64,000 nucleotides of DNA, taken from NCBI GenBank assembly GCA_021292105.1, contig CM037865.1, positions 20,254,928 to 20,318,927 of the forward strand, given 5' to 3'. Below the pieces are notes generated by a model that made no database searches, was not told where the DNA came from, and was given only the letters and a program-made list of their open reading frames with translations. This stretch comes from Anadara kagoshimensis (taxonomy: Eukaryota; Mollusca; Bivalvia; Arcoida; Arcidae). Below are positions 265 to 62,238 of the stretch, piece by piece. Position 1 is the first letter of the stretch. Each line of letters begins with the position of its first letter. Made by a program: the position numbers and the translations under genes.

Positions 265-395
265 GGGATATTATACAATAATTGCCCGCTAGGTATGTGG
301 AAATCCAGAATTGTCACCCGACAGAAAAAATGAAGGGTGACAATTCTGGATGTCCACATACCTAGAGGGCAATTATCATTTTATTATACCGAAAC
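265..395. mobile_element. Palindromic MITE, short form
   Basis: Inverted arms beginning near ATAATTGCCC and including CTAGGTATGTGG and AGAATTGTCACCC meet around a very short centre (about 322-330). The allelic copy at 14,358-14,530 has the same arms but a longer centre, so this one has probably lost its interior. No transposase is encoded. The superfamily cannot be assigned because the target duplication is unclear. Confidence 0.75.
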
Positions 396-1385
396 AAAAA
401 TTACCATGTAAATAGACGCAAACAATATCTTAATTTAAAATAAGTTCAATGCTGCCAGTTTACACTTTCAACCATCCCGAGAAGGGGGGGCTCATACTTT
501 AGATTCCGCAGAATCTAGGTTTACCTCTCTTTCCGTTTCCATCAAATACATTTGCAGTATTTTCACTGAAGCTTGGGTGCCCCATTTTGTGTTTTCTGAA
601 TCTTTGTCATACATAATTAATAACAAGCCCGCTTCCGACGAACTGCAAAAAACGACTGGCCGCCATTGTTATTGTTTACCAAATGACAACACAGTTCTGT
701 TGTACGAGTTGTTTTCCTTGTACCGGGTTATCACCGGGTGATAATAGTATTATCACATGGTTGTGAGAGGTTATCACATGGCTGTTAGAGGTTGTCACAC
801 ACGCTGACAGTGATTCTGTGGGAAATATCTCATTTATTACATGTCATGTGATCGGAAAACATTCAATGAAAAGTGTTTCAACATATGTGAAGTATAATAA
901 ACAAGATTATATAATCAATGCATACATACAATTTGCTTCTTTGAATTTATAGTGAGTCATAATGCAATAATAAAAACAAATTCTGAAAAACTTTGACCTG
1001 CTCGCAATACGTTTATAAAAAGAATCAATTATCTTAATACATGTTAAAATCCAACAACTTGAAGGTCGGTTAACTATAAGGGGGTAAGGTAGAAATAGTG
1101 TTCAATAATGTAACTCAAACATAATAAATATCATATTTAAGATAAAAAATCTTTCATACATATATTTTATAATACTTAAACCATTTTTACACGAGTTATG
1201 ATTGATAAATAAAGTCGCAATAAGGTAAAAAAACATTTTGTCTTAGGTGCTTTTGATATATCAAAGTTAATTACCATTTATGTAAAAAATGTAAATTTAT
1301 TACAATATCGTACATGTTCTTTTAAATCCGACAAAAAACTTAAAATAAATCGTAAACCTATTATCGATTTTGTTCCATTTCATGT

Positions 1386-14635: not shown

Positions 14636-15203
14636 TCATACTTTAGATTCCGCAGAATCTAGGTTTACCTCTCTTTTTGTTTCCATCAAATACATTTCCA
14701 GTATTTTGGGTGACCATTTTTGTGTTTTCTGCATCTTTGTCAAACATAATTAATAACAAGCCCGCTTCCGACGAACTGCAAAAAACGACTGGCTGCCATT
14801 GTTATTGTTTACCAAATGACAACACAGTTCTGTTGTACGAGTTGTTTCCCTTGTACCGGGTTATCACCGGGTGAGAATAGTATTATCACATGGTTGTGAG
14901 AGGTTATCACATGGCTGTGAGAGGTTGTCACACGCTGACACTGATTTTGTGGGAAATATCTCATTTATTACATGTCATGTGATCGGAAAACATTCAATGA
15001 AAAGTTTTTTAACATATGTGAGGTATAATAAACAAGATTATATAATCAATGCATACATAAAATTTGCTTCTTTGAATTTATAGTGAGTCATAATGCAATG
15101 ATAAAACAAATTCTGAAAAAAACTTTGACCTGCTCGCAATACGTTAATAAAAAGAACCAATTACCTTTATACATTTGTTAAAAACCAACAACTTGAAGGT
15201 CGG

Positions 15204-15641
15204 GAAAAGGTAGAAATTCCAAAAGCAGAAGATCTTTTTACAGAAGATAATTCCAGTAAAAATGAATTGGATATTGTGTCATCAACTCCAAAGATAGAGG
15301 ATGAAAATCATTTCATTGCTCATGCAGTCCAAGTTTCATCACATGTTGAAGCGCGTAATGCTGTGAAACAAATTCTTAAGATACCCCATGTTGCAAAAGC
15401 ATCTCATAACATTCTGGCTTACGTGTTCAATGATATGAATGGTGATTCTTATGAAGGCTTAGATGATAATGGAGAGTATGGTGCTGCACGACAAATTCTA
15501 AAAATGATGAATTACAATAATATCACTAATACCCTTGTAATTGTATCCAGGTGGAACCCTCTATGTCGGAAATTAGGCCCGAAGCGCTTCAAAATAATGA
15601 TAGAAAGTGCCCTAGAAGCTGCTAGTAATCTGCGTGTGTAA
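15204..15641 (+). pseudogene. IMPACT / UPF0029 (YigZ-type) domain fragment, 5'-truncated
   Basis: An open frame runs from the insertion boundary to a stop at 15,639-15,641, with no convincing ATG: the coding part appears to begin mid-protein with an acidic linker. From about 15,306 it matches the IMPACT N-terminal domain of YigZ/IMPACT proteins. Visible signatures are HFIAHAVQVSSHVEARNAVK, SHNILAYVF, an acidic turn then GEYGAARQIL, and VIVSRW followed by LGPKRFKIMIESAL. The tyrosine-glycine-glycine usually found after SRW is replaced here by NPL. In animals IMPACT proteins bind GCN1 and restrain GCN2 signalling; that role is family knowledge, not shown here. No introns interrupt the 145 codons, and it lies inside the LINE target-site duplication. 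This suggests a retrocopied, 5'-truncated piece rather than a resident gene exon. A diverged LINE-encoded domain is the alternative. Confidence 0.75.
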
Positions 15642-16224
15642 CAATTGGAACTCTATTTGAACTTTTTATGTTTTTTTTCACTTAAAATTTTATATATGTA
15701 TTACGTTCTATAGTCAGATATATAGTCAAAACTGTAATAGGATACGTAAATAAGAGAATTTTAGAAATAATCTTTAAATAGTCAAATCCCTGGTGGCATA
15801 ATTATTTTGTCATCTCTTCCAGTTTTCACTCTATATCTGTTCTTGTTATAGTTTTCAAAACTTTGAAAAAATGATTTAGTATGATTTTTTTTATTATATG
15901 ATCCAAAATTTAAAAAATACATGATCCTGCAAATTCTATAATTTTTGTCAAAAAATTGGTATGCCAAAGGTCTTTTATGTACCAAACTGCAATTATGGTC
16001 TCACGACGATCGTTTGCCAGAGTGTTTGTAAACACCGGTAGGTCTATTTTAAGAAATGGGTATTATAATCAGTGTTATAGTGTGCATGTATTCGCGCAGT
16101 AATGCTTTTCAATCCTCAATCACCCTTATTTGTGACCCCTATTTCCATATATAGACTCTTCCGTGTTTATAGGTATGTCTTCAGTCCATCCAGTCAACTT
16201 ACTGAGCTACTATACGATAACGGA
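15642..16224. other. Spacer between IMPACT fragment and LINE leader
   Basis: AT-rich, no open frame of note. There is no obvious poly(A) that would mark the end of a copied IMPACT mRNA. It may be the 3' UTR of that transcript, the start of the LINE leader, or both. The junction cannot be placed by eye. Confidence 0.4.
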
Positions 16225-16550
16225 CACAGTTGTTGATTTTTAAAATTACCGAACCATAACTACACACCTCTGCTATATACACCAGTGTTCGGAAACACGA
16301 TTATCGATTTTAATTGTATGAACTCAGTCAGTGTAAATGTAGTCGTTCTTCTCTCTATCGTTAAACAACCGTATACGAATGTACACATAGCACGGTTATT
16401 AATTTTTGAAATCACTGAACCATTACACACTAGGACTATATACACAAGTGTTCGGAAACACGATTATCGATTTTTATCGAACGATCTCAGCGGTTAGTGT
16501 AAATGTAGTCGTTCTTCTCTCTATCATTAACCAACCCTATACAAAAGTAC
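16225..16550 (+). promoter_or_regulatory. Tandem repeat in LINE 5' leader (two units of about 165 bp)
   Basis: GTGTTCGGAAACACGATTAT occurs at about 16,284 and again at about 16,449. It is followed each time by GTGTAAATGTAGTCGTTCTT and preceded by an AC-GAACCAT-AC-ACAC stretch. Tandem monomers upstream of ORF2 are typical of internal LINE promoters. Promoter activity is inference from position. Confidence 0.6.
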
Positions 16551-16906
16551 CGTGTTTTTGCGGTCAGTCTATGTGTAATTGATTTTCTGTAATAAAAAAC
16601 GCTTAATAGCTAAATTGCTATTACTGAAAAGACACTATAAATGTATATAGGATCTTATACCCAAAGTAGCAGCTGCAGGCGAACCAGCAAAAAATCTTGT
16701 ATTGTTTTATAAGTCCCCTCCCGTATTATGTCATATCTGTCCCCGTGTTTGTCTCTGTTTTTGTCTTGTATTATTGTCTATTTCTTATACTTTAGTGTTC
16801 TAAAAGCTTGGCATAGTGAGTGTATATTAATGAAATGTAGTACATATTGTTATATATCAAATTGTTATGTTTATATAGACACGAATGTTAAAAAAATATA
16901 TTTAAA

Positions 16907-17707
16907 TGAGTAAGAATCAAAATTCAATCCGTGTATTGTCGGCAAACGTGCGAGGTTTAGGTCAATTCAAAAACGAACAGACGTTTTCGAATATCTTAAG
17001 TCAAAAAAATGTCACATATACTGTTTACAAGATGTTCACTTTACGAGAGAAAGGAAAATAACATAAAATTGCAGTGGGACGGACAAGTAGTATTTAATTC
17101 TTACACGAATAATTCTAGAGGCGTCTGTATTCTTTTTGATAATAACTTTGAATATATATTGCATAAAGAAAAGAAAGATAATGATGGTAACTTTCTGGCT
17201 CTTGATATTACTATTGAAAATAAAAAAGTAACATTAATAACGATATATGGTCCTAACTCTGACAAACCAAAATTCTTTGAACAACTGGAGAATACCATTA
17301 CTGATTTTAAAAATGAATCATATATTATCTGTGGAGATTTTAATATTGTTCAAGATGCTGAACTTGATACATATAATTACAGTTCTATAAATAACCCTAA
17401 AGCAAGAGGAAAATTGCTAGAAATACGACACAACCTTAACCTTGTTGATCCATTTAGACAATTATTTCCAGACAAAAAGAGATATACTTGGAGAAAGAGC
17501 AACCCCATTAAACAAGCTAGACTCGATTACTTTTTAATTTCTGAAAATTTATGTCAAATGTTGCAGATGTTCAGATAAATCCAGGATATCGATCTGATCA
17601 TTCTATGATAATATTAAATGTCCAGTTAAACGAATTTGTTAAAGGGAGGGGCTCTGGAAATTTAACTCCACTCTATAAAGTGATAAAGACTATGTCTCTA
17701 AAGTAAA
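16907..17707 (+). pseudogene. LINE ORF2, AP-endonuclease domain, frameshifted
   Basis: The likely ORF2 start is the ATG at 16,907. Reading across several frame changes gives the landmarks of an APE-type endonuclease: SANVRGLG near 16,945, LQDVHFT near 17,025, VTLITIYGPNSD near 17,230, CGDFN near 17,330, RLDYFLIS near 17,520 and YRSDHS near 17,587. The order and set match L1/Tx1-clade LINEs. This domain nicks the target to start reverse transcription. At least three frameshifts (about 16,960-16,985, 17,040-17,060, 17,545) break the frame, so no functional protein is expected. No ORF1 is seen between the leader and this ORF. Confidence 0.85.
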
Positions 17708-18343
17708 GTCATGTATTACAAATGTTAAAAAGCAATATGCAGTACCAGTTTATGAATTAGACAACATTGAAAGTATTGATAATAATGATATACAATTTTC
17801 TATTTCTGATCAACTATTTTTGGAAACTTTGATGATGGAAATTAGAGGTAAAACTATTTCATTTTCGTCATTTAAAAAGAACCAAAAACTTAAACAAGAA
17901 AACACTCTTATCAAAGAAATTGAAGTGTTAGAAAATAAAACAGATAATACCCACACCGACCTTGAAATTCTTGAAACTAAACATACCGAACTTGAAAACT
18001 TAAGAAAAGAAAAAATAAAAGGACAAATAATAAGATCTAAATCCTCTCTTGTTGAAGACAATGAAAAACCTTCAAAATATTTTTTAAATTTAGAATCTCG
18101 AAACTTTGTTAATAAGACAATTACCAGACTTCAAAAAGATAATGGAGAAATAATTAGAAATCAAAAAGAAATTTTAAATGAAATAAAAAACTTTTATCTA
18201 GAACTGTATTCCGAAAAAGAGGTAGAATCTTTAGATTTAGAAAATGTTTGACAATTTTGATATTCCGAAACTAACTAATAATGAATCAAGTAAATTAGAA
18301 TGCAAAAATTAGCCTATCTGAAGCTCTTGCTGTATTAAAAAAC
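17708..18343 (+). pseudogene. LINE ORF2, linker between endonuclease and RT, frameshifted
   Basis: After a frame change near 17,690 the reading continues through a Lys/Glu-rich, probably coiled-coil stretch (17,820-18,251; e.g. EIEVLENKTDNTHTDLEI). It then shifts near 18,249 and again near 18,312. The last part, with ISLSEALAVLKNMKNNKSPG read across the shift, leads into the RT. The region is as expected for the L1-type linker and RT-0 motif, with at least two more lesions. Confidence 0.75.
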
Positions 18344-20704
18344 ATGAAAAACAACAAAAGCCCAGGTACTGATGGATTTACTGCTGAATTTTTTAAGTTT
18401 TTCTGGTCTGATTTGGGCATTTTCATAGTTAGATCAATTAACGACGCTTATGAGAAGGGAGAATTGTCTGTAACACAAAAACAAGGAATTATTACCTGCA
18501 TTCCTAAGGGCGACAAACCAAGACAGTTTATGCAAAACTGGAGACCAATAAGTCTTTTAAATGTTATTTACAAGATTGCGTCTGGTTGTATAGCCTCAAG
18601 AATTAAAAATATATTACCTTTAATTATTTCTGAAGATCAAACTGGTTTTCTAAGCGGTAGATATATAGGTGAAAATATAAGAATTGTATATGATATAATG
18701 CAATATACGGAATCGAAAAATATTCCAGGCATGTTTATATTAATTGACTTTTTTAAAGCATTCGATAGCGTTTCGTGGGACTTTATATTCAATGTTTTGA
18801 ATTTCTTTAAGTTTGGAGAATCTATAAAGAAATGGGTTAAACTCTTCTTTACCAATATTTCATCCGCAATTAATCAAAATAATATCTTATCTGATTTTTT
18901 TATATTGAAAAGAGGTTGTAGACAAGGGGATCCTATTTCCAGTTATTTATTTTTATTATGTGCTGAAATTTTATCCTTACTAGTGAAACATAATAAATCC
19001 ATTAGCGGAATTGTTATTGATGACACAGAACTTAAACTATCGCAGTTTGCCGACGACACTACCTTAATTTTAGATGGTTCAAAAACAGCCTTCGATGAAG
19101 CTATGAACGTTATTGAATTTTTTGGAAAAATTTCGGGTCTTAATATAAATGTCTCAAAAACGAGAGTAATTTGGATTGGTAAAAAAAAGTTTTGTGGGGA
19201 AACATTTAACCACCGGCTTAAATTAAACTGGAATCAAACAAGTTTTAATGTACTAGGAATAGAATTTTCAACTGATCTTGATCAAATAGTAAAAATTAAT
19301 TTTGAGAAAAAAATTGAACAAATAAAGTCAATTTTGCACTCCTGGTCAAGCAGGTATCTTACGCCATTAGGAAGAATAACAATACTTAAGACGTTGATAA
19401 TATCGAAATTGAACTATCTTTTTATATCACTTCCAAACCCACCCCCTCAAATGTTGGATAAACTGAATAGCATGTTTTATGAATTTGTTTGGAATTCAAA
19501 AAATGATAGGATTAATAGAAATGTACTTATTCAAAAATATTTCAGCGGTGGTTTAAAAATGATTCATTTACAAAAGTTTATAGAATCACTAAAAATAACT
19601 TGGATTAGAAGAACTTTAAAAAATAATGGAAAATATAGAACAATATTTTACACCATTGTTAAAAATCCGAAAAGTATATACACACAAGGCAAAACAGCCT
19701 GTATTGATATATCCAAAAAAATAAGTAACGAATTTTGGAAGCATGTTTTATGTTCCTTTGCAAACTTACAAAATGTCCATAACTGCAAAACATTAAATGA
19801 TTTCCAAACATCGTGCATTTGGAACAATCACTTGATAAAAGTTGGAGGGAAAGAAATAAATTATAAACATTGGCAATGTAAGGGTATTTTATTTATTCGG
19901 GATCTTTTAACTGAGAATGGATTTATAACATATGATCAATTTATACAAACATTTACTGTAAAAACAAATACTTTAGAATTTTTTGGGGTGATAAATGCAA
20001 TTAAGGAATATTTGTCAAACCTTGATATCAAACTCAGACCTCATGTGATACAGTACCCATTTATTCCATTTCATATAAGAATTTTGCTAAAATCATCAAA
20101 AGGTTGTAAAGATATGTATACTGTTTTAACTCAGAATACAACAAAACCCAAAAGTCAAGCTAAGTGGTTAAATATATTTAACAATTTAGATACACAGTGG
20201 CATTATTTATACTCTATTCCCTTTTATACTACTAAAAATACCAAGTTGTTATGGTTTCAGTTTAGAATTAATCACAACATTTTGGCAACAAATCGATATT
20301 TAAAGAAAATTGGGGTAAAAAATAATGATAAATGCACTTTTTGTAATAACGCGGAAGAAACAATTATACACTTGTTCTGGGAGTGTCAAATGGTTCACCA
20401 TTTCTGGGATAGAATACAAAACTGGGTCTCCATAAAAATGAAAAAATCGCTTGATCTTAGTGCAAAAACGGCTTTATTTGGTCTTTTTAACTTCAGTGAA
20501 AAATGTAAGCCAGTCAATTTTTTATTATTGCTGGTGAGATACTACATATACACATGTAGAGTTAAAAATAGAAAATTAAACTTATTTATGATGCAAAATA
20601 TTATCCTTCAAAACTTTCAATGCGAAAAATTGATATATATAGGTAATAACAAAATAGATATCTTTACAGAAAACTGGGAGATATGGTTTGATTTATTTGA
20701 ATAA
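18344..20704 (+). CDS. LINE ORF2, reverse transcriptase and C-terminal zinc-finger block
   Basis: A 786-codon open block with the full non-LTR RT series. KNNKSPGTDGF starts it, then IPKGDKPRQFMQNWRPISLLN, FLSGRYIGENIR, LIDFFKAFDSVSWDF, RGCRQGDPISSYLF, and the catalytic FADD box at 19,046-19,060 (Phe in place of the usual Tyr before ADD), followed by SGLNINVSKT. The thumb region includes LTPLGRITILKTLIISKLNY. Near the C-terminus is a zf-RVT-type finger, C-x2-C-x7-H-x4-C (about 20,335-20,390). The intact block implies fairly recent insertion or slow decay, but it is cut off from its endonuclease by upstream frameshifts. L1/Tx1 is the best clade guess; phylogeny is needed to settle it. Confidence 0.93.
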   Translation: MKNNKSPGTDGFTAEFFKFFWSDLGIFIVRSINDAYEKGELSVTQKQGIITCIPKGDKPRQFMQNWRPISLLNVIYKIASGCIASRIKNILPLIISEDQTGFLSGRYIGENIRIVYDIMQYTESKNIPGMFILIDFFKAFDSVSWDFIFNVLNFFKFGESIKKWVKLFFTNISSAINQNNILSDFFILKRGCRQGDPISSYLFLLCAEILSLLVKHNKSISGIVIDDTELKLSQFADDTTLILDGSKTAFDEAMNVIEFFGKISGLNINVSKTRVIWIGKKKFCGETFNHRLKLNWNQTSFNVLGIEFSTDLDQIVKINFEKKIEQIKSILHSWSSRYLTPLGRITILKTLIISKLNYLFISLPNPPPQMLDKLNSMFYEFVWNSKNDRINRNVLIQKYFSGGLKMIHLQKFIESLKITWIRRTLKNNGKYRTIFYTIVKNPKSIYTQGKTACIDISKKISNEFWKHVLCSFANLQNVHNCKTLNDFQTSCIWNNHLIKVGGKEINYKHWQCKGILFIRDLLTENGFITYDQFIQTFTVKTNTLEFFGVINAIKEYLSNLDIKLRPHVIQYPFIPFHIRILLKSSKGCKDMYTVLTQNTTKPKSQAKWLNIFNNLDTQWHYLYSIPFYTTKNTKLLWFQFRINHNILATNRYLKKIGVKNNDKCTFCNNAEETIIHLFWECQMVHHFWDRIQNWVSIKMKKSLDLSAKTALFGLFNFSEKCKPVNFLLLLVRYYIYTCRVKNRKLNLFMMQNIILQNFQCEKLIYIGNNKIDIFTENWEIWFDLFE

Positions 20705-21164
20705 TCCAAAATAAAAATGTTGTGAATCATACTAGCTTATATAATAACATCCGCAATGTCCACGCTTAGTAGTTATATTTTATATGCACACGAGTATACC
20801 GTACATACACAACTATATCCATATAGATATACATATAATAAAAGTATAAATTATGTCAATATTAAATATTATATATCAAATTATATAAAGTACTTACTTT
20901 TGAACACTTCCACTAAATATATTCCATTTAAGTTACACGTGTCTGTTTATACACGCATGATTAACCTTTAACAGGTATAACTACTGAACTTGGACATTCA
21001 CGATGTATAACTGTCTTACGTACTGTTATTATTGAATGATCACGGTGTATAACCATTGTTGCTGTCTATTGATATGTATATATACATGTATTATATTTGT
21101 AAAATTATAAAATTTATCATTATATACCTTATTATGCCAATAAACATAAACATTATAAAAAAAA
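20705..21164 (+). other. LINE 3' UTR and poly(A)
   Basis: AT-rich tail after the ORF2 stop, with AATAAA at 21,139-21,144 and a terminal run of about ten A directly before the target-site duplication. Confidence 0.75.
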
Positions 21165-21379
21165 AACTTGAAGGTCGGTCAACTTTAAGGGGGTAAGGTA
21201 GAAATAGGGTTCAATAATGTAACTCAAACATAATAAATATCATATTTAAGATAAAAAACCTTTCATACATAAATTTTGTAATACTTAAACCATGTATGAA
21301 GATAAAGAAGTGCGTACAACTTAGTGGAAGGTTTCAGGTTCTTTTTCATTCCCCGGCATTTTTTGTTTGTTTTATCACA

Positions 21380-22084: not shown

Positions 22085-23809
22085 CCTATGTTATCTATTA
22101 AAATTAGGTAAGTTGTTTGGCTGATTCGTTGAAAACCTTCATCTCAAAAATCTTTGAGCCAATAGAAGACACATCTATTGTGGAAGATAACTAGGTATAG
22201 TATATTGCATTTAGATGTCAGGTACCTTGGTATTTAGCAAAGTTTGCAATGTATATTATTATTCTTATTAATAAGGCCGAGTTTATGTTATATTATTACT
22301 TACACTTACATACGTCTTCATTAGTATCATTGACTAGGTACAATGTGCATAATCTTCTGAGATATTGATTATTTATTTACAAATTACAACGCCTTCCAAG
22401 TAATGCATTAATACACGATAAACCTGTATTTTTGGTAAATAGAGTGAATCATATTTCTATAATGCATACATAAAATGTGCTTCTAGTAATTTATAGTGAG
22501 TCATATAATGCAAGGATTAAACAAATTTTAAAAAACTTTGACCCACTTGCAATACAAAACAATTACCGTTATGCATTTGCTAAAAACTAACAAGTTGAAG
22601 GTCGGTCAACTTTAAGGGGGTAATGTTGAAATAGGGTTCAATAATGTAACTCAAAACAATGCTTAAACAATTTTACAGGACTTATAATCAATAAGAACAT
22701 TTTGTGAAGAAGTACAATCATAACTATGTGCAGTTTTTTAGGTGGGTGTATTACGTTTGTGTGAAGATCCAAAAGTTTTAAATTTTTTATCAATAAGATT
22801 TGATTATTATTAGTTTTAAAAATGAATCTTAAGTACTTTAATTTAACGAGGAAACTCCGTCATATACATCTTTATCCGTTATATACGTGTAAGTTAAATA
22901 TCTAGGTAGGTACTTTCTTTATTTCAATTTGAAGAAAAACGGTAGAAAATATATTGCACTATGGCTATTTTAGTGATTTTTCTATTTTTAGTCTGGCTGG
23001 TAATCTTGAATATTTTAAAGCCTTGTAAAAATAATTATCATACCTAGGAACCTTTCGTACCAAATTTTTTTTCGATTGGCCCGGTGGTTTCTTAATTGGC
23101 TAACAATCTGACCTCATTTGCATAATATGTTAAAATTAAGTTTATGAAAAATGACTCAGAAACACCCGTTGTATGTGTAAAATTGTCAGATATCTACTAT
23201 CTGTATTTCAAATTTTAACAAAATCAATAGAAACCCACTAACCCATTATGACCATTTTAGTTAATTTCCTATTTATACGATGTCGCCTTGTAAAAAATTT
23301 GCTTTAGCCTAGGAACATTCGACAACAAATTTGGTTTCAATTTGTTGTGGTGTGTATATTCAAAGTATAAGCAAAAATGACAATTTTATTGATTTTGCTA
23401 TTTATAATACCGACGGTTATCTTGAATATTAAAAAGGGCCATGTACAAACTAAGATAAACCATACCTAGATACCTTTCACTCCAAATTTCGTTTTAATTA
23501 GCCCCATGGATTCCGAAGAATTGTTTTTGCTAAAAATTTGACTTCAATTGCATAATTCGCACAGACGCATGGGCACACGTTTTACAATGATATATGTTAA
23601 CTACTAAATACTATACCTTTAGCATAACTCGATCAATGGATGCTTTTTCAGAAAACCATCTCGTCACATTTCTTCAGTGGATTCAAAGGAAATGATAAAC
23701 AGTTACACACAACGGGGCGGCGAATACACGTGCGCTTAGCCATACCTTAAGCCAGTTGAGCGAATGACGTTTAAATAGTACCAATCGAAATTAAAATTTA
23801 AAATGATCT

Positions 23810-35797: not shown

Positions 35798-36340
35798 TTA
35801 ATTGTCAACCAATGGTTGCTTGATAGCAGCCTGTTCAGCTACTGAAGGCGTTACAGACTCCTGAGCCATAGAAAGTGAATGGTCCAGTTCTGAAGTTTTT
35901 GGCTCAAATTTTTCATTTGTTTTAATAAGATGCCTTCGATTCATTTGTTTTGTACCACCATCAGCAGTCTGAACAGTAAACGACCTATGGTCATTTTCCT
36001 GCAAACAAAAAGCAGGGTTCCATAAATCATTAACACGAACAACATCACCTGTATGAACATTAGGGAGCGGTTTTGAACCTCTATCGTACAGTTTCTTGGT
36101 AGTCTGTTCCTCTTTGAGCATTCGATCACACACGAGTTCATGCTCTATACTTAAAGGTTTTAACGCAGTGTTAGTAACTGGCAATATTGATCTCAATGAC
36201 CGATTCATTAATAACTGCGATGGAGAGTAACCTACTTGTAGCGCAGTTGTACGGTATTCCAGTATACTTATATAAGGATCTCTGCGATCAGAGCGTGCCT
36301 TACTTAGTATTCGTTTTACTGTCTGAACAGTACGTTCTGC
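35798..36340 (-). pseudogene. Gypsy integrase, C-terminal part
   Basis: From about 36,345 downward the minus strand reads PQSNGLAERTVQTVKRIL, which includes the catalytic glutamate region of the integrase core. It continues through YRTTALQVGYSPSQLLMNRS into a basic C-terminal domain with GDVVRVNDLW (35,798-36,208 open). This part normally binds viral-like cDNA ends and tethers to chromatin. It is separated from the N-terminal part by a frameshift. Confidence 0.75.
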
Positions 36341-36347
36341 GAGTCCA

Positions 36348-36707
36348 TTAGATTGGGGATATATAGTGGACTTGATGTAATATGCTCAAAGTTCCATTCG
36401 TTGGCAAAAGCGATGAGCTCGAAAGCATTTCAACTTCAAAGAAGCGACTGTAGTAGTCAACAACGACTATGTATTCACGATTGTTCCATGTGAACAGGTC
36501 GGACGCTACTACTTGCCATGGTAAACGTTGTACTTCGTGTGACATCATAGGCATTTTAGCATTACTATTTTGCCTTTCCAAGCAAGTATTACATTGAGTG
36601 ATGTAATTTGGAATATCGGTAGCGATATTTGGCCAAAACATAACTTCACGTGCACGCTTGATGCATTTCTCGACACCCATGTGTCCATAGTGCAGTTTTT
36701 CAACCAT
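36348..36707 (-). pseudogene. Gypsy integrase, zinc-binding domain and start of core
   Basis: A 119-codon block with an HHCC zinc finger (LHYGHMGVEKC ... CNTC) and the first catalytic aspartate in VVASDLFTW, followed by YIVVVDYYSRFFEVEML. The next stretch is out of frame. The segment that should hold the second catalytic aspartate (the SDNG-type motif) is not found, so about 90-100 bp appears to be deleted. Confidence 0.8.
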
Positions 36708-36830
36708 TGTTGATCGGAGCGGTATCAGGCTTCGAGATCTTTTTAGTATAACACCATTCTCGACAGCGAGTTCGTCACGATAATTGAATTATTCCTTTAA
36801 TATTGCTGGACAATCCTTATAGTTATCTGG

Positions 36831-37973
36831 CTAAACATCGGCTAATACTTGAACTAGAACAGACACTTGCGGATCTCTACGCGTCTCCTCTGCTATTTCT
36901 GCGAACCTCTCATCGCTGAATGGTATGTTTTTCATTACCGTGTGAACGTAAACATTTATTCCCCCGGAGAGCTGATCATCGGAGTCAGTAATAAACTTAC
37001 GAGACAATTTTACGGCAAGCGGAATGTTTTTACCAGATACATGTACATGATAAACATTAAGGTCATATTGCTGCAAATGTAATAACATGCGTTGTAAGCG
37101 GGGAGGTGCTGCACTTAGCGGCTTTCTAACTATTACTTCTAATGGCGTGTGGTCAGTTTGCACATTAACTTTTTTACCATAAAAATAGTGGTGATAACGT
37201 TTGCAACCAAAAAGTATAGCTAGCATTTCTTTCTTAATTTGTGTATATTGCACCTCTGAAGTAGTTAGCGATTTTGACGCGTATGCAATAGGTTTGCCAT
37301 TTTGTACTAAAATCGCACCAATGCCGCATTTTGATGCATCAACTTGCAACGTAACGTCTAAATCCGGATCATAATAAGATAAAATTGGTCCTGGACAGGT
37401 GGTGAATATGTCCTTAATCGCATTCAAAGGATGTTCTTGAGGCGCATCCCATGAAAATTCAACGTATTTGGCAAGGAGTGTCCTTAGTGGACTTGTGAGG
37501 TCGGCTAAGTAAGGAGCGAACTTACAGAGGTACGTAATCATTCCTAGAACAGTTTGCAACTCTGCTCGATTTACTGGAGGTTCCATATCGCGTATTGCAG
37601 CAATTTTTGATGGATCTGGTTTAAGACTATCTGCACTAAGTATATGTCCGAAGTAACGTACTTCTGTTACACCTACATCTAGTTTGTCCTGATTAAATTT
37701 AACGCCTTTCTGACGCGCACGATCAAGAACTCTGCGAAGATTAGTGTCATGCTCTTTAAGGGTCCTGCCATAAACAAGAACATCATCAACTATCGCTTCA
37801 ACTCCATCTAATCCTTCGAAACTTTCATCGATACAGCGTTGGAATTCGTCCTGCGACGATTTGAGACCAAAGGACAGTCTTAAATATCGGTAACGACCTA
37901 GTGGTGTATTGAATGTTGTGAGGAATGACGATTCCTCTGAAAGTTTTATAGCCCAATAACCCCCAACGGGCAT
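36831..37973 (-). pseudogene. Gypsy reverse transcriptase (palm/thumb) and RNase H
   Basis: A 380-codon block. Near its start is TPLGRYRYLRLSFGLKSS, then AIVDDVLVYG (catalytic VDD box) and VRYFGHILSADSLKPDPSK. The RNase H part has TLQVDASKCGIGAILVQNG, KKEMLAILFGCKRYHHYFYG and VQTDHTPLEVI, covering the acidic residues. The linker that usually reads ADALSR reads AVKLSR here. The block is long and clear, but the 5' RT motifs are in another frame (38,027-38,413). Confidence 0.88.
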
Positions 37974-38026
37974 CCAATTTTGTGAAATATTTAGCGTTAG
38001 CTAGCTTAGGTAAAATATCCTCAAAG

Positions 38027-38413
38027 TTACGTGTTGGGTAATGCGGACGTTGTATAGCTCGATTGAGGTTCTGAGGGTCTATACTCGATTGCGGTTTTTT
38101 CTACTACTACAAGTGAACTTACCCACGGGGTCGGTTCGGTAACTTTCGTGATTACGCCTAAGGATTCCATACGCGATAGCTCATCTTTAAGTTTGTCTTT
38201 TAGCGACACTGGAATACGACGCGGAGGGTTTACAACAGGGGGTACGGAAGGGTCAAGTATAATGTTACATTCACCTTGGAACAACCCAATACCATTAAAT
38301 ACATCAGCATAGTTTTCTAATATGACCTGTTTATCTAAGTATTGTTCTGTGACATTTCTTGCTTGTAAAGCATCAACAAACTTAATTACTGAAAAATCTA
38401 AACATGCTTTCAA
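38027..38413 (-). pseudogene. Gypsy reverse transcriptase, N-terminal part
   Basis: Contains PPRRIPVSLKDKLKDELSRM, SLGVITKVTEPTPWVSSLVVV and then loses frame where the RT would continue (KPNGSLRICLDP-type region). It joins 36,831-37,973 after a short degenerate interval. Confidence 0.8.
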
Positions 38414-38415
38414 AC

Positions 38416-38800
38416 CTAGAATAGTTGGCGATTCTGTATCAATGATAAAGAAATCAAGTATACTTGACTTGTTACCAAGGCAACATTGAATTTTACTACT
38501 CCTACTGTTTTCAGTTGGTTACCATCATATGTCGAAAGTTTGTCATTAGCTTTCTGAAGGGGTAATTTCAGTCCCATACTTTGAAATACTTTAAGTGGCA
38601 AAATGTTAACTTGTGACCCAGTATCAAGTTTAAAATTTACATGTTTACTATCGGGACCACAATACAATTTTACAAAAGCTTGATCATTCTTAGTAGCATT
38701 GACAATACTATCAACAGAAATGCAGTCAACAAATATTTCATTTAAAACTAAAGTCATTATCTTCGTCTTTGTCTTTGTCCACCACGTTGACTGAGTGTTG
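38416..38800 (-). pseudogene. Gypsy aspartic protease
   Basis: FKLDTGSQVNILPLKVF (about 38,585-38,635) is the retropepsin active-site motif D-T-G. It is followed by a beta-strand stretch with VVKFNVALVTSQV. Upstream residues read from an alternative frame as MPKQHSVNVVDKD, a usual gag-pol junction style. The open frame extends to 38,880 only because it reads through SINE sequence. Confidence 0.75.
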
Positions 38801-46727: not shown

Positions 46728-48698
46728 TTACCAAAACGTTTGGTTAGTATATTTCCATTGTTCAGAAAGACCTTTCGAATTCTTCTTACAAACACAAAAA
46801 CCAGTCAAACTCGGCTCGTTTAAAATGCACAACGGCATTCCATATCCATCCAATCTTTTTATCTCTCCAATTAGACGACACTTTGTTAATTGTTCAATTC
46901 TGACAGTTCCTTCAAAATTTGAACCACTAGGCAATGTTGATATCTTCAAATGATAATTCACAATTTTTCCTTGTTTCTTTTCAAGCTTAGAGTCTACATA
47001 AGATTCAACTTTTTCCGCAAAATTTACTTTTCCTAACTTCCACTCTTCACAAATGTTTCCAAACTTTTTAATCTTATTATTCAATTCAGTCAATAGACAC
47101 TGTGAAGCTTTTTGTACATTGGTATCTGTAATGGCAATTTGAGATGGCGTTGTGCATGCACAATACTGAGATGGAATATTGGCGTTCTCGCATGTTCGTT
47201 CTTTCGGAATGTCTCTTAGAAGACTTATACCGTTCCCCTTCTTTGTAATAGCATTCGACATGGGATCAGAATTTATGGCTAATATGTCCAGTAATGTAGT
47301 ATGGATATCGTAAGTGCTGACCAACTTTTCAGCATTGTTTTGTAAATTGTTATACAGTTCCGGGCGGCCATCTTGTATCCACTTAGGTATGTTCATCATC
47401 ACAAACGGCAATCTCTCTTCATATTTACCTATCAATGTCCCTTTGGTCGTTTCATAAGTAGAACCATAGTCACTGAAATATACAACCACAGTGTTCTCCA
47501 ATAGATTTTTGCTCACCATGTCAAAGAGGAACCGGAAATGAACATCGTCATGCACAGACAATCCATTGGGATCCCTTTGTGTCAACTTACTAAGAAACAA
47601 AAATCCAAAATGGCTATTATGACGAAACACCGACAGGAATTCCTCTGTGTATTCAAGTATTCTTTCAATAAAAAGTTTATTTCGAAAGCAATGGTCATGA
47701 TTTAGTTCCCGTTTATTGCTTTCCATGGCTAACATTAAAGGTCTAAGATAAAAATCAGTCGGCTGTGTAAAAAACCCTCGGCGGAAGTGGTTAAACGGTC
47801 CAAATGCCGTGTTATCTTCGGCGTACATTGTCACATATCCAGCTTTAGCGAACTCTTTCCAGATAAGCGGAAGTTTATCTAGAGGGTATCGCTTTTTATT
47901 AATCTCTTCACTAGTACTTCCGGTTAATAATCCGACCAGATTTAGAAATGTACTGTCTTCGATTTTATTATAACCGAAAAATTCAACTGAATTAAATTGA
48001 TTCTTCAAAAAGTTTCTGGTTTTGTTCATATGTCGACGAAAATTCATTCTTGAAACGGCACCGATTCCAACCAGTAAAACATTCAAATGAGCCGGATTTC
48101 TCTCAATATCCAACAACGGCAGTTGTGTTAAATTCCTCATTTTCTCAAAATTGTCCCTGAAAATGAAACTGTAAAAATTTGTGTATAATAACACTTTCTT
48201 TGCAAAACAGCTAACATGAATAAATTCATATTCTGGTTGTATTTCTATATCATACCAAAATTGTTGTATTTTGAAAAGATCGAATCTGATTCTTTTATCG
48301 GAATTTGGTGATCGGTGAAATGGTGTATATTCACAATGTGTGAATTTCGGATATTCAGTCATAACTGCGGTCCAGTTTATCCGTAAAAACCTCCCGTCCT
48401 TTATTATGATTTCCGACTTGTTACTACAATGTAATGACCATCGTTTAAAGTACTTGCTAACAGATGGGTCCATCGGATTTAAATTAGGGATTTTACAAGC
48501 CTTACTATTGATAAGATATGGTCCAAACTGTTTATCAGGTTCTTGATTGGCCAATATCCGGCTGATGTCGAATGAGGACGAGGCTGTGCTGGTCACGTGT
48601 CTGGATACATGCGATTGATTGGTTGCCCAATGAACAAATATAACCATATTTACTCCACTCATGAATAAAAATATTTTCCATTGGTCGAGAATCCTCAT
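46728..48698 (-). CDS. DUF229 / sulfatase-like (alkaline phosphatase superfamily) protein with altered metal site
   Basis: An uninterrupted 656-residue frame. Residues 8-25 form a hydrophobic segment, consistent with a type II membrane or Golgi/secretory anchor; the rest would be lumenal or extracellular. The DUF229 fold is visible from about 206: NVLLVGIGAVSRMNF (206-220), FGYNKIEDSTFLNL (241-254), QPTDFYLRP (312-320), LSKLTQRDPNGLS (369-381), YFSDYGSTYE (407-416), EERLPFVMMNIP (427-438) and YDIHTTLLDIL (463-473), then a Cys-bearing C-terminal domain. Thr250 could be the nucleophile. Several expected metal ligands are changed: Gly213 for Asp, Tyr411 for His, Gln-Arg 374-375 for His-Asp. Function as a hydrolase is therefore doubtful. 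Length is usual for the family. The start is the ATG 21 bases after a probable 5'-UTR acceptor. Confidence 0.9.
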   Translation of the reverse strand: MRILDQWKIFLFMSGVNMVIFVHWATNQSHVSRHVTSTASSSFDISRILANQEPDKQFGPYLINSKACKIPNLNPMDPSVSKYFKRWSLHCSNKSEIIIKDGRFLRINWTAVMTEYPKFTHCEYTPFHRSPNSDKRIRFDLFKIQQFWYDIEIQPEYEFIHVSCFAKKVLLYTNFYSFIFRDNFEKMRNLTQLPLLDIERNPAHLNVLLVGIGAVSRMNFRRHMNKTRNFLKNQFNSVEFFGYNKIEDSTFLNLVGLLTGSTSEEINKKRYPLDKLPLIWKEFAKAGYVTMYAEDNTAFGPFNHFRRGFFTQPTDFYLRPLMLAMESNKRELNHDHCFRNKLFIERILEYTEEFLSVFRHNSHFGFLFLSKLTQRDPNGLSVHDDVHFRFLFDMVSKNLLENTVVVYFSDYGSTYETTKGTLIGKYEERLPFVMMNIPKWIQDGRPELYNNLQNNAEKLVSTYDIHTTLLDILAINSDPMSNAITKKGNGISLLRDIPKERTCENANIPSQYCACTTPSQIAITDTNVQKASQCLLTELNNKIKKFGNICEEWKLGKVNFAEKVESYVDSKLEKKQGKIVNYHLKISTLPSGSNFEGTVRIEQLTKCRLIGEIKRLDGYGMPLCILNEPSLTGFCVCKKNSKGLSEQWKYTNQTFW

Positions 48699-48740
48699 TT
48701 TTAAGTTCAGTAATGTTTTCTAAAATTGAAATAAAATAAG
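48699..48740 (-). other. Probable 3' splice site of a 5'-UTR intron for the DUF229 gene
   Basis: On the minus strand a TTATTTTATTTCAATTTTAG tract ends at 48,720, and the ATG follows 21 bases later. The upstream non-coding exon was not located. Confidence 0.5.
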
Positions 48741-61439: not shown

Positions 61440-62238
61440 ACGATTATCTGGAAAACTACACACTTTTTGTATAGACATGTACATGTATATTTCATTGTTG
61501 TAGATATTGATATAACAATCATTTTGCTGTATAGAAAAAGTCATGGGTTCAAAGGTCAAGGTCACAGATGCGAAACAATACCAAAATGGTTAATTATCTC
61601 AAAAACTATAAACTTTTTGTACAGGCATGTATATCAGAATGTTGTAGGTATTGATACAACGATTATTTTGATGTTTAGAAAAAGGTCATGGAATCAAAGG
61701 TCAAGGTCACAGATGTGAAACAATACCGAAATGGTTAATTATCTCAAAAACTATTAACTTTTTGTATAGGCATGTATATTAGAATGTTGTAGGTATTGAT
61801 ACAACGATCATTTTGATGTATAGAAAAAGGTCATGGAATCAAAGGTTAAGGTCACAGAAGCGAAACAATACCGAAATGGTTAATTATCTAAAAAAAACTA
61901 TTAACTTTTTGGATAGGCATGTATATTAGAATGTTGTAGTTATTGATACAACAATCATTTTGATGTATAGAAAAAGGTCATGGGTTCAAAGGTCAAGGTC
62001 ACAGATGCGAAACAATCCCTAAATGGTTAATTATCTCAAAAACTATAAAATTTTTGTAGAGGCATGTATATTAGAATGTTGTAGGTATTGATACAACGAT
62101 CATTTTGATGAATAGAAAAAGGTCATGGTTCAAAGGTCAAGGTCACAGATGTGAAACAATACTGAAATGGTTTATTATCTTGAAAACTATTACCTTGTTG
62201 AATAGGCATGTATAATAGAATGTTGTAGGTATTGATAC
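61440..62238 (+). repeat. Tandem array, about six units of 144-147 bp
   Basis: GAAACAATACC-type anchors at 61,572, 61,717, 61,862, 62,009 and 62,153. Each unit contains AGAATGTTGTAGGTATTGAT, a GATGTATAGAAAAAGGTCATG block and TCAAAGGTCAAGGTCACAGA. A more diverged unit precedes them at about 61,440. The last unit is cut by the element at 62,239. Confidence 0.9.

Follow-up and report, generated by a model that had tools for sequence, protein, structure and literature searches.

In L1, a long interspersed nuclear element (LINE), the protein of the first open reading frame (ORF1p) trimerises and coats its RNA, and that of the second (ORF2p) carries out target-primed reverse transcription; in human L1 the spacer between ORF1 and ORF2 measures tens of bases. 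Here we describe an L1-group LINE of the bivalve Anadara kagoshimensis, which came to light as a truncated insertion in a stretch of 64,000 nucleotides (C9:20254928-20318927; hereafter the window, by which the whole stretch is meant) and was followed through the whole genome (1.115 Gb, 36 contigs). The predicted ORF1p of this element ends in an IMPACT/UPF0029 domain, and we consider it very probable that a large and diverse LINE clade in this genome has this fusion as its standing architecture.

Additional modules on ORF1 have precedents, since Metcalfe and Casane (2014, PMC4120745) distinguish five ORF1 types in LINEs, with PHD and esterase additions. The IMPACT protein and its yeast homologue YIH1, according to two publications, inhibit GCN2 by way of GCN1 (PMC7140605, PMC4503747). 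PMC7140605 attributes Gcn1 competition to the RWD domain, which inhibits on its own when overexpressed, and states that no function has been established for the other, ancient domain, even in Yih1. The invariant features common to Yih1 and bacterial YigZ are described as clustering on one face.

Results

A truncated LINE in the window and its full-length copies

The feature in the window is a 5'-truncated, recently inserted copy of an L1-group LINE (Table 1). The original prediction, made from the letters of the window, had described a 14-bp duplication around a 5.96-kb insertion; both copies of the 14-mer AACTTGAAGGTCGG were found, and they enclose an insert of 5,961 bp. Further exact copies of AACTTGAAGGTCGG occur at 1056 and 2811 and a copy with one mismatch at 22592, all within the duplicated region, and shuffled sequence gave a mean of 0.02 matches with up to one mismatch allowed. 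The flanks, joined without the insert, match copy A of the segmental duplication across the junction (872 bp, 92%; joined positions 461-1318 against window 331-1184). The flanks are continuous there, and the 14-mer of copy A stands without IMPACT and without LINE, so the empty site expected near 1,058 is present. The insertion opens, as had been proposed, with an IMPACT frame free of introns in the window copy (15129-15641, which matches UPF0029 above the Pfam cut-off), and the start of ORF2 follows at about the distance of 1.3 kb that had been given.

Seven matches to the IMPACT segment, the window included, were found in the genome. In L002, L003, L004 and L006 the match continues into the same downstream LINE sequence and reaches ~940-980 bp further 5' than the window copy, with one shared reading frame in three of the four; L007 is cut within the IMPACT segment and still continues downstream, and L005 matches its first 526 bp only. 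The alignment of L008 with L009 spans 6,943 bp at 99.6% identity; the two begin at the same base and differ in their flanks. The bounding repeat is ACCTTTTCAAATCCAT for L009 and AAACATTGAC for L008; its leading A's may be tail, and 2-3 extra bases separate the 5' repeat from the element. Over its own length the window copy shares 99.4% identity with L009. L010 begins ~36 bases in, within a tandem array, and its repeat is unreadable; L011 is ~97% identical over most of its length, with an 8-bp candidate repeat that is too short and was not counted; L012 is truncated 5' inside IMPACT itself.

The full element is ~6.94 kb long and consists of a 5' untranslated region (UTR) of ~124 nt, an ORF1 of 431 aa, a spacer of ~1.26 kb, an ORF2 with endonuclease, reverse transcriptase and zf-RVT, and a 3' UTR of ~460 nt with an A-rich tail. 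ORF1 has its 431 aa in both L008 and L009, is open without that start codon in L010 and is broken in L011. The start codon of ORF2 heads an open frame in L009, L010, L011 and L012, and in the sole uninterrupted copy seen ORF2 is an open frame of 1,267 aa. At C13:17848812-17851211 a reverse transcriptase (RT) 100% identical to that of the window lies inside an open 1,267-aa frame; ORF1 and spacer gave no match there, and this copy is probably 5'-truncated.

Because the window copy starts at codon 287 of 431, its isolated IMPACT fragment represents what ordinary 5' truncation spared of ORF1, the 3' third; the first two thirds were removed. Two statements of the original prediction have therefore to be withdrawn, namely that the first sequence after the 5' duplication is not LINE and that no ORF1 is seen: the full-length copies show that 15204-15641 belongs to the LINE and is part of its ORF1. 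The window copy, L008 and L009 each have direct repeats and a tail, and two copies, that of the window and L012, are truncated at the 5' end, which suggests that the element would insert by target-primed reverse transcription.

We also considered a one-off capture at the window insertion, in which the LINE RT switched to a host IMPACT mRNA or the domain arrived by 5' transduction. Such an event would account for an element that begins within the IMPACT frame immediately after the direct repeat and lacks its own start codon. However, copies between other flanks, including the full-length L008 and L009, have the same segment at the same position; it forms codons 287-431 of a longer, 431-codon frame; L012 is truncated within the domain; and distant relatives carry the domain as well (see below). 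The capture is thus extremely improbable, and both routes that had been suggested for it, template switching and 5' transduction, are refuted for this copy. LINE copies starting at about 15,650-16,200 without IMPACT were sought among those whose match to the spacer (15642-16240) reaches at least 86%: none was found among the six, which are the window and five others and all hold the IMPACT segment, C19:54715444 just its last part, the check covering subfamily copies found by spacer match as distinct from those matched by RT alone. The third suggestion, a LINE lineage with IMPACT in the slot of ORF1, is supported, as the full-length copies and the distant relatives show that the lineage carries the domain; ORF1 is not replaced, however, since the domain forms a C-terminal extension of an L1-type ORF1p.

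Domain composition of ORF1p and class of ORF2

On the evidence of its sequence, ORF1p is an L1-type protein with a basic N-terminus, a coiled coil, an RNA recognition motif (RRM), a C-terminal domain (CTD) and, after these, the IMPACT/UPF0029 domain. An ORF1p profile was built from 13 rows, of which three are incomplete at the N-terminus and one is out of frame locally. It matches LINE-1 ORF1p (2ykp) with an E of 9e-10 over positions 107-277; four distinct L1 ORF1p chain sequences, which we take to be human and mouse, were matched at E values from 9e-10 to 8e-7. The same profile matches the yeast IMPACT homologue YIH1 (6bqi) with an E of 3e-22 over positions 304-419, and the bacterial proteins TTHA1053 and YigZ, both presumably assigned to Pfam UPF0029, at 6e-4 and 0.01. 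Because the bacterial matches are much weaker, the fused domain looks derived from an eukaryote-type IMPACT. DDDGE-like and GPxRF-like motifs are kept in it. When a single ORF1p sequence was searched, the IMPACT domain alone was convincing (yeast IMPACT homologue, E 1.2e-7). The Pfam scan of ORF1p gave no match to RWD up to an E of 1, and Transposase_22, the Pfam model for L1, stayed below its cut-off of 22.4, with 18.9 bits in one of ten relatives and no match listed for the ORF1p of the window subfamily. A structure prediction for the window fragment from its single sequence was poor (mean predicted local distance difference test score, pLDDT, 47) and was not used.

The RT scores 196-198 bits against 8c8j (an RNA-directed DNA polymerase) and LINE-1 ORF2p chains and 73-77 bits against R2 chains. 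As LINE-1 ORF2p is thus its nearest relative among solved structures, we assign the element to the L1 group, an assignment that takes L1 and Tx1 together. ORF2 of the window copy is split into separate frames: RVT_1 (122.6 bits) and zf-RVT (35.6 bits) were recognised by Pfam in 18299-20704, and two endonuclease families gave weak scores in 17000-17578 (23.1 and 22.1 bits, each under the Pfam cut-off). The endonuclease piece of this broken copy is homologous to that of the relatives. The spacer ahead of ORF2 measures ~1.26 kb in L009, ~0.9 kb in L050 and ~1.1-2.1 kb by ORF1/RT pairs, these last values assuming ~1.4 kb of ORF2 ahead of the RT query. Part of the window spacer (~15992-16171) has 32 more relatives in the genome at 70-79% identity, none of them less than 15 kb from a scored ORF1, UPF0029 or RT match.

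Distribution across the genome

Three genome-wide searches were scored in part, that with ORF1p for 97 of 849 candidates (98 matches), that with UPF0029 for 150 of 275 (150 matches, all above the cut-off) and that with RT for 56 of 7,493 (58 matches). Relatives of ORF1p at 30-49% identity amount to at least 98 matches; 80 of the 98 extend to residue 415 or further, and several of the other 18 continue in another frame. UPF0029 scored over the Pfam cut-off in all ten relatives scanned, taken from 30 loci, and endonuclease and RT follow ORF1 in all of the four distant relatives whose downstream sequence was inspected, the best RT piece being 44-68% identical and C-terminal pieces going down to ~29%. 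Of the 58 RT matches, 19 are open frames of 1,249-1,272 aa, uninterrupted by stops and with identities of 52-55%. Among the scored matches UPF0029 is followed by RT on the same strand in 27 pairs at 25 loci (four of the window's own subfamily), which involve 26 of the 58 RT and 26 of the 150 UPF0029 matches; the wrong order or strand was seen in none, and the chance value is ~0.03. The sole genome-wide match to Transposase_22 (19 candidates, all scored) served as a control: it is an L1-type ORF1 in which the best E for IMPACT, 0.12, is not significant, followed by an endonuclease-like frame (named by eye; E 0.001 against the window endonuclease), so an L1-type ORF1 does not carry IMPACT by default.

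A host multigene family encoding a coiled coil, an RRM-like part and IMPACT, with LINEs adjoining it by chance, would also yield many copies with open frames, and UPF0029 is a host-type domain; 70 of the 150 UPF0029 matches are moreover unlinked to any scored ORF1 or RT match. The N-terminal part of the protein is nevertheless homologous to L1 ORF1p, its order and strand relative to RT are constant, and the joint insertion between direct repeats refutes this explanation for the window's subfamily. We give a host family next to no credence.

Several observations weigh against the fusion as the architecture of a whole clade. The ORF1 query included IMPACT, which biases the number of matches towards carriers. 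RT matches without a scored UPF0029 upstream number 32 of 58, and 31 of them lack a scored ORF1 too. In eight of the 32 the 2.7 kb where ORF1 is expected were read; they showed no ORF1-like match and no frame above 150 aa, which fits 5' truncation; LINEs of the clade with another ORF1 could exist among the unscored candidates and the 24 unread RT matches. Finally, 80 of the 150 UPF0029 matches are tied to a scored LINE ORF1 or RT match, and most of the 70 that touch neither are not shown to be LINEs.

Some single loci deserve mention. In L040 (1477-3124; C13:27507212 onwards) a second IMPACT domain lies ~0.5 kb after the ORF1 copy. Two short UPF0029 matches on C4, considered as host exons, were rejected, being frameshifted copies of LINE ORF1. 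A host IMPACT gene was not located among 20 RWD matches, the nearest scored UPF0029 match lying 264 kb off, although a domain split by introns may escape such a search. The best UPF0029 match, L048 (C22:147631-147939), belongs by eye to a bacterial-looking gene of the YigZ type in a stretch of 29% G+C, and is probably a contaminant or symbiont in the assembly. No relatives were confirmed in viral contigs or in prokaryote genome contigs (262 and 311 pattern matches, respectively).

Amino-acid constraint and history of the ORF1 cassette

The alignment of the 13 ORF1p rows indicates that the ORF1p-IMPACT fusion is held under amino-acid constraint. Mean pairwise identity is 44% for IMPACT (78 pairs), 43% for RRM-CTD (78) and 34% for the coiled coil (45). 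Invariant ORF1p columns number 22, of which 12 fall in IMPACT (H354, D363, G366, D374, E377, G379, L385, V400, R402, G411, R414 and F415), a proportion that is fair for the later part of the protein only, as the N-terminus is missing in three rows and the coiled-coil columns cannot count. Close pairs gave an omega of 0.15-0.33 from few changes (three rows for the N-terminal part, one for IMPACT). It tells against the argument from constraint that synonymous sites are near saturation between subfamilies, and the case therefore rests on retained frames and residues rather than on a clean ratio of nonsynonymous to synonymous change (dN/dS). Across 205 pairs, which are not independent of one another, identity in the N-terminal part tracks identity in IMPACT (r 0.83); two parts that move as one unit would be expected to behave in this way.

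These data bear on whether IMPACT is a passenger kept by descent, with no role in retrotransposition. In favour of a passenger, PMC7140605 leaves the ancient domain without a function even in Yih1; but more than half of the invariant columns lie in IMPACT, and the domain is conserved like the RRM-CTD core while synonymous sites approach saturation. We therefore judge a mere passenger unlikely.

ORF1 and RT trees conflict for five elements (L018/L044, L020/L047, L026/L045, L043/L046, and the window RT with the ORF1 of L009). L018 goes with L026 in the RT tree (100% support) and L026 with L043 in the ORF1 tree (100%), and each data set rejects the tree of the other (approximately unbiased, AU, test p 0.0007 and 0.00008). 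The conflict points either to ORF2 lineages that have swapped the ORF1-IMPACT cassette or to nesting at the locus L018.

Features of the window

Table 1. Parts of the LINE insertion and of its target site, in window coordinates
Feature	Position	Strand	Evidence
Empty target site, copy A of the segmental duplication	1056..1069	+	joined-flank alignment, 872 bp at 92%
5' target-site duplication AACTTGAAGGTCGG	15190..15203	+	14-mer search
Truncated ORF1, codons 287-431 of 431, with stop	15204..15641	+	alignment to full-length copy L009
UPF0029/IMPACT domain, C-terminus of ORF1p	15309..15614	+	Pfam 66.8 bits, cut-off 27; 64.4 bits in full ORF1p
ORF1-ORF2 spacer, ~1.26 kb	15642..16905	+	sequence and full-length copies
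Two adjacent ~160-bp repeats within the spacer (16225-16384 and 16391-16550), 83% alike	16225..16550	+	self matches
ORF2 start (ATG 16906) and endonuclease piece, frame broken here	16906..17578	+	frames, Pfam
ORF2 stretch between endonuclease and RT; no Pfam match	17679..18251	+	homologous in relatives
ORF2 RT and C-terminal zf-RVT piece	18299..20704	+	Pfam; nearest solved relatives LINE-1 ORF2p chains
3' UTR and A-rich tail	20705..21164	+	sequence, full-length copies
3' target-site duplication AACTTGAAGGTCGG; first bases merge into the A run of the tail	21165..21178	+	14-mer search

Elsewhere in the window, broken frames on the minus strand at 35798-38518 resemble, by eye, the Pol of a Gypsy-like long terminal repeat (LTR) retrotransposon; an open frame of 663 aa at 46728-48719, also on the minus strand, is perhaps a host gene; and a tandem array with a period of ~145 bp occupies 61456-62238.

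Discussion

By analogy with L1 ORF1p, the ORF1p described here would trimerise and coat the LINE RNA, and each trimer would then present three IMPACT domains. The domain might provide a further surface to which a conserved partner binds, ribosomes or RNA being the likeliest; such a contact may, speculatively, aid the formation of the ribonucleoprotein (RNP) on the translating mRNA or, since the spacer before ORF2 is long, the translation of ORF2 across it. We advance this ribosome- or RNA-contact role as a tentative prediction, and one published point counts against the isolated ancient domain as a ribosome contact. That this widespread L1-like clade employs the domain to keep or regulate ribosomes on the mRNA of the element, or else to dampen the translational stress response of the host, is likewise possible, if on the doubtful side.

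The domain could alternatively counter the translation arrest imposed by GCN2, by interference with GCN1/GCN2, as IMPACT and YIH1 do according to PMC7140605 and PMC4503747. The first of these, however, places Gcn1 competition in the RWD domain, for which the scan of ORF1p gave no match, and such interference seems improbable to us. Our best guess is a conserved partner in the translation apparatus or an RNA partner, and we regard direct control of GCN2 as less likely.

The divergent, constrained copies without RWD (149 UPF0029 matches besides the bacterial-looking one) are a natural data set for finding the partner of this domain, and they bear on the formation of LINE RNPs in cis and on the translation of ORF2. 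Should the reading of ribosome control or of a blunted stress response be true, the elements would encode a translation-control module of their own.

In open-licence PMC we found no paper that joins LINE ORF1 and UPF0029/IMPACT, and among the papers listed none mentions the fusion in its title or in the opening of its abstract; UPF0029 by itself occurs in four papers there. UniProt, Repbase and Dfam lay outside this search, and the two domains may stand together in sequence databases through automated annotation. Neither UPF0029 nor IMPACT occurs in the main text of PMC4120745, and UPF0029 has no occurrence in papers on bivalve and gastropod LINEs (PMC10294476, PMC11203168).

Among the known systems, the closest is LINE-1 ORF1p of type II (coiled coil, RRM, CTD), which the present protein resembles in the profile match over positions 107-277 and in its place before an ORF2 with endonuclease and RT; it differs in the IMPACT domain of ~105 aa after the CTD and in the long spacer, ~0.9-2.1 kb where measured. 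With ORF1 of the Jockey superfamily carrying PHD or esterase, as presented in PMC4120745, it shares an extra module on a known ORF1 type and a reticulate evolution of ORF1, whereas the domain is another one, its place is C-terminal and the RT is L1-like. With IMPACT and YIH1 it has in common the ancient domain at the C-terminus, which is homologous and keeps both the DDDGE-like and the GPxRF-like motif; unlike them, the LINE protein has no match to RWD and the domain is joined to an ORF1p of RNA-binding type. The bacterial UPF0029 proteins YigZ and TTHA1053 contain the same Pfam domain, although the profile matches them much more weakly than YIH1. To our knowledge, IMPACT would be the first extra module of an ORF1 that is known from a translation regulator.

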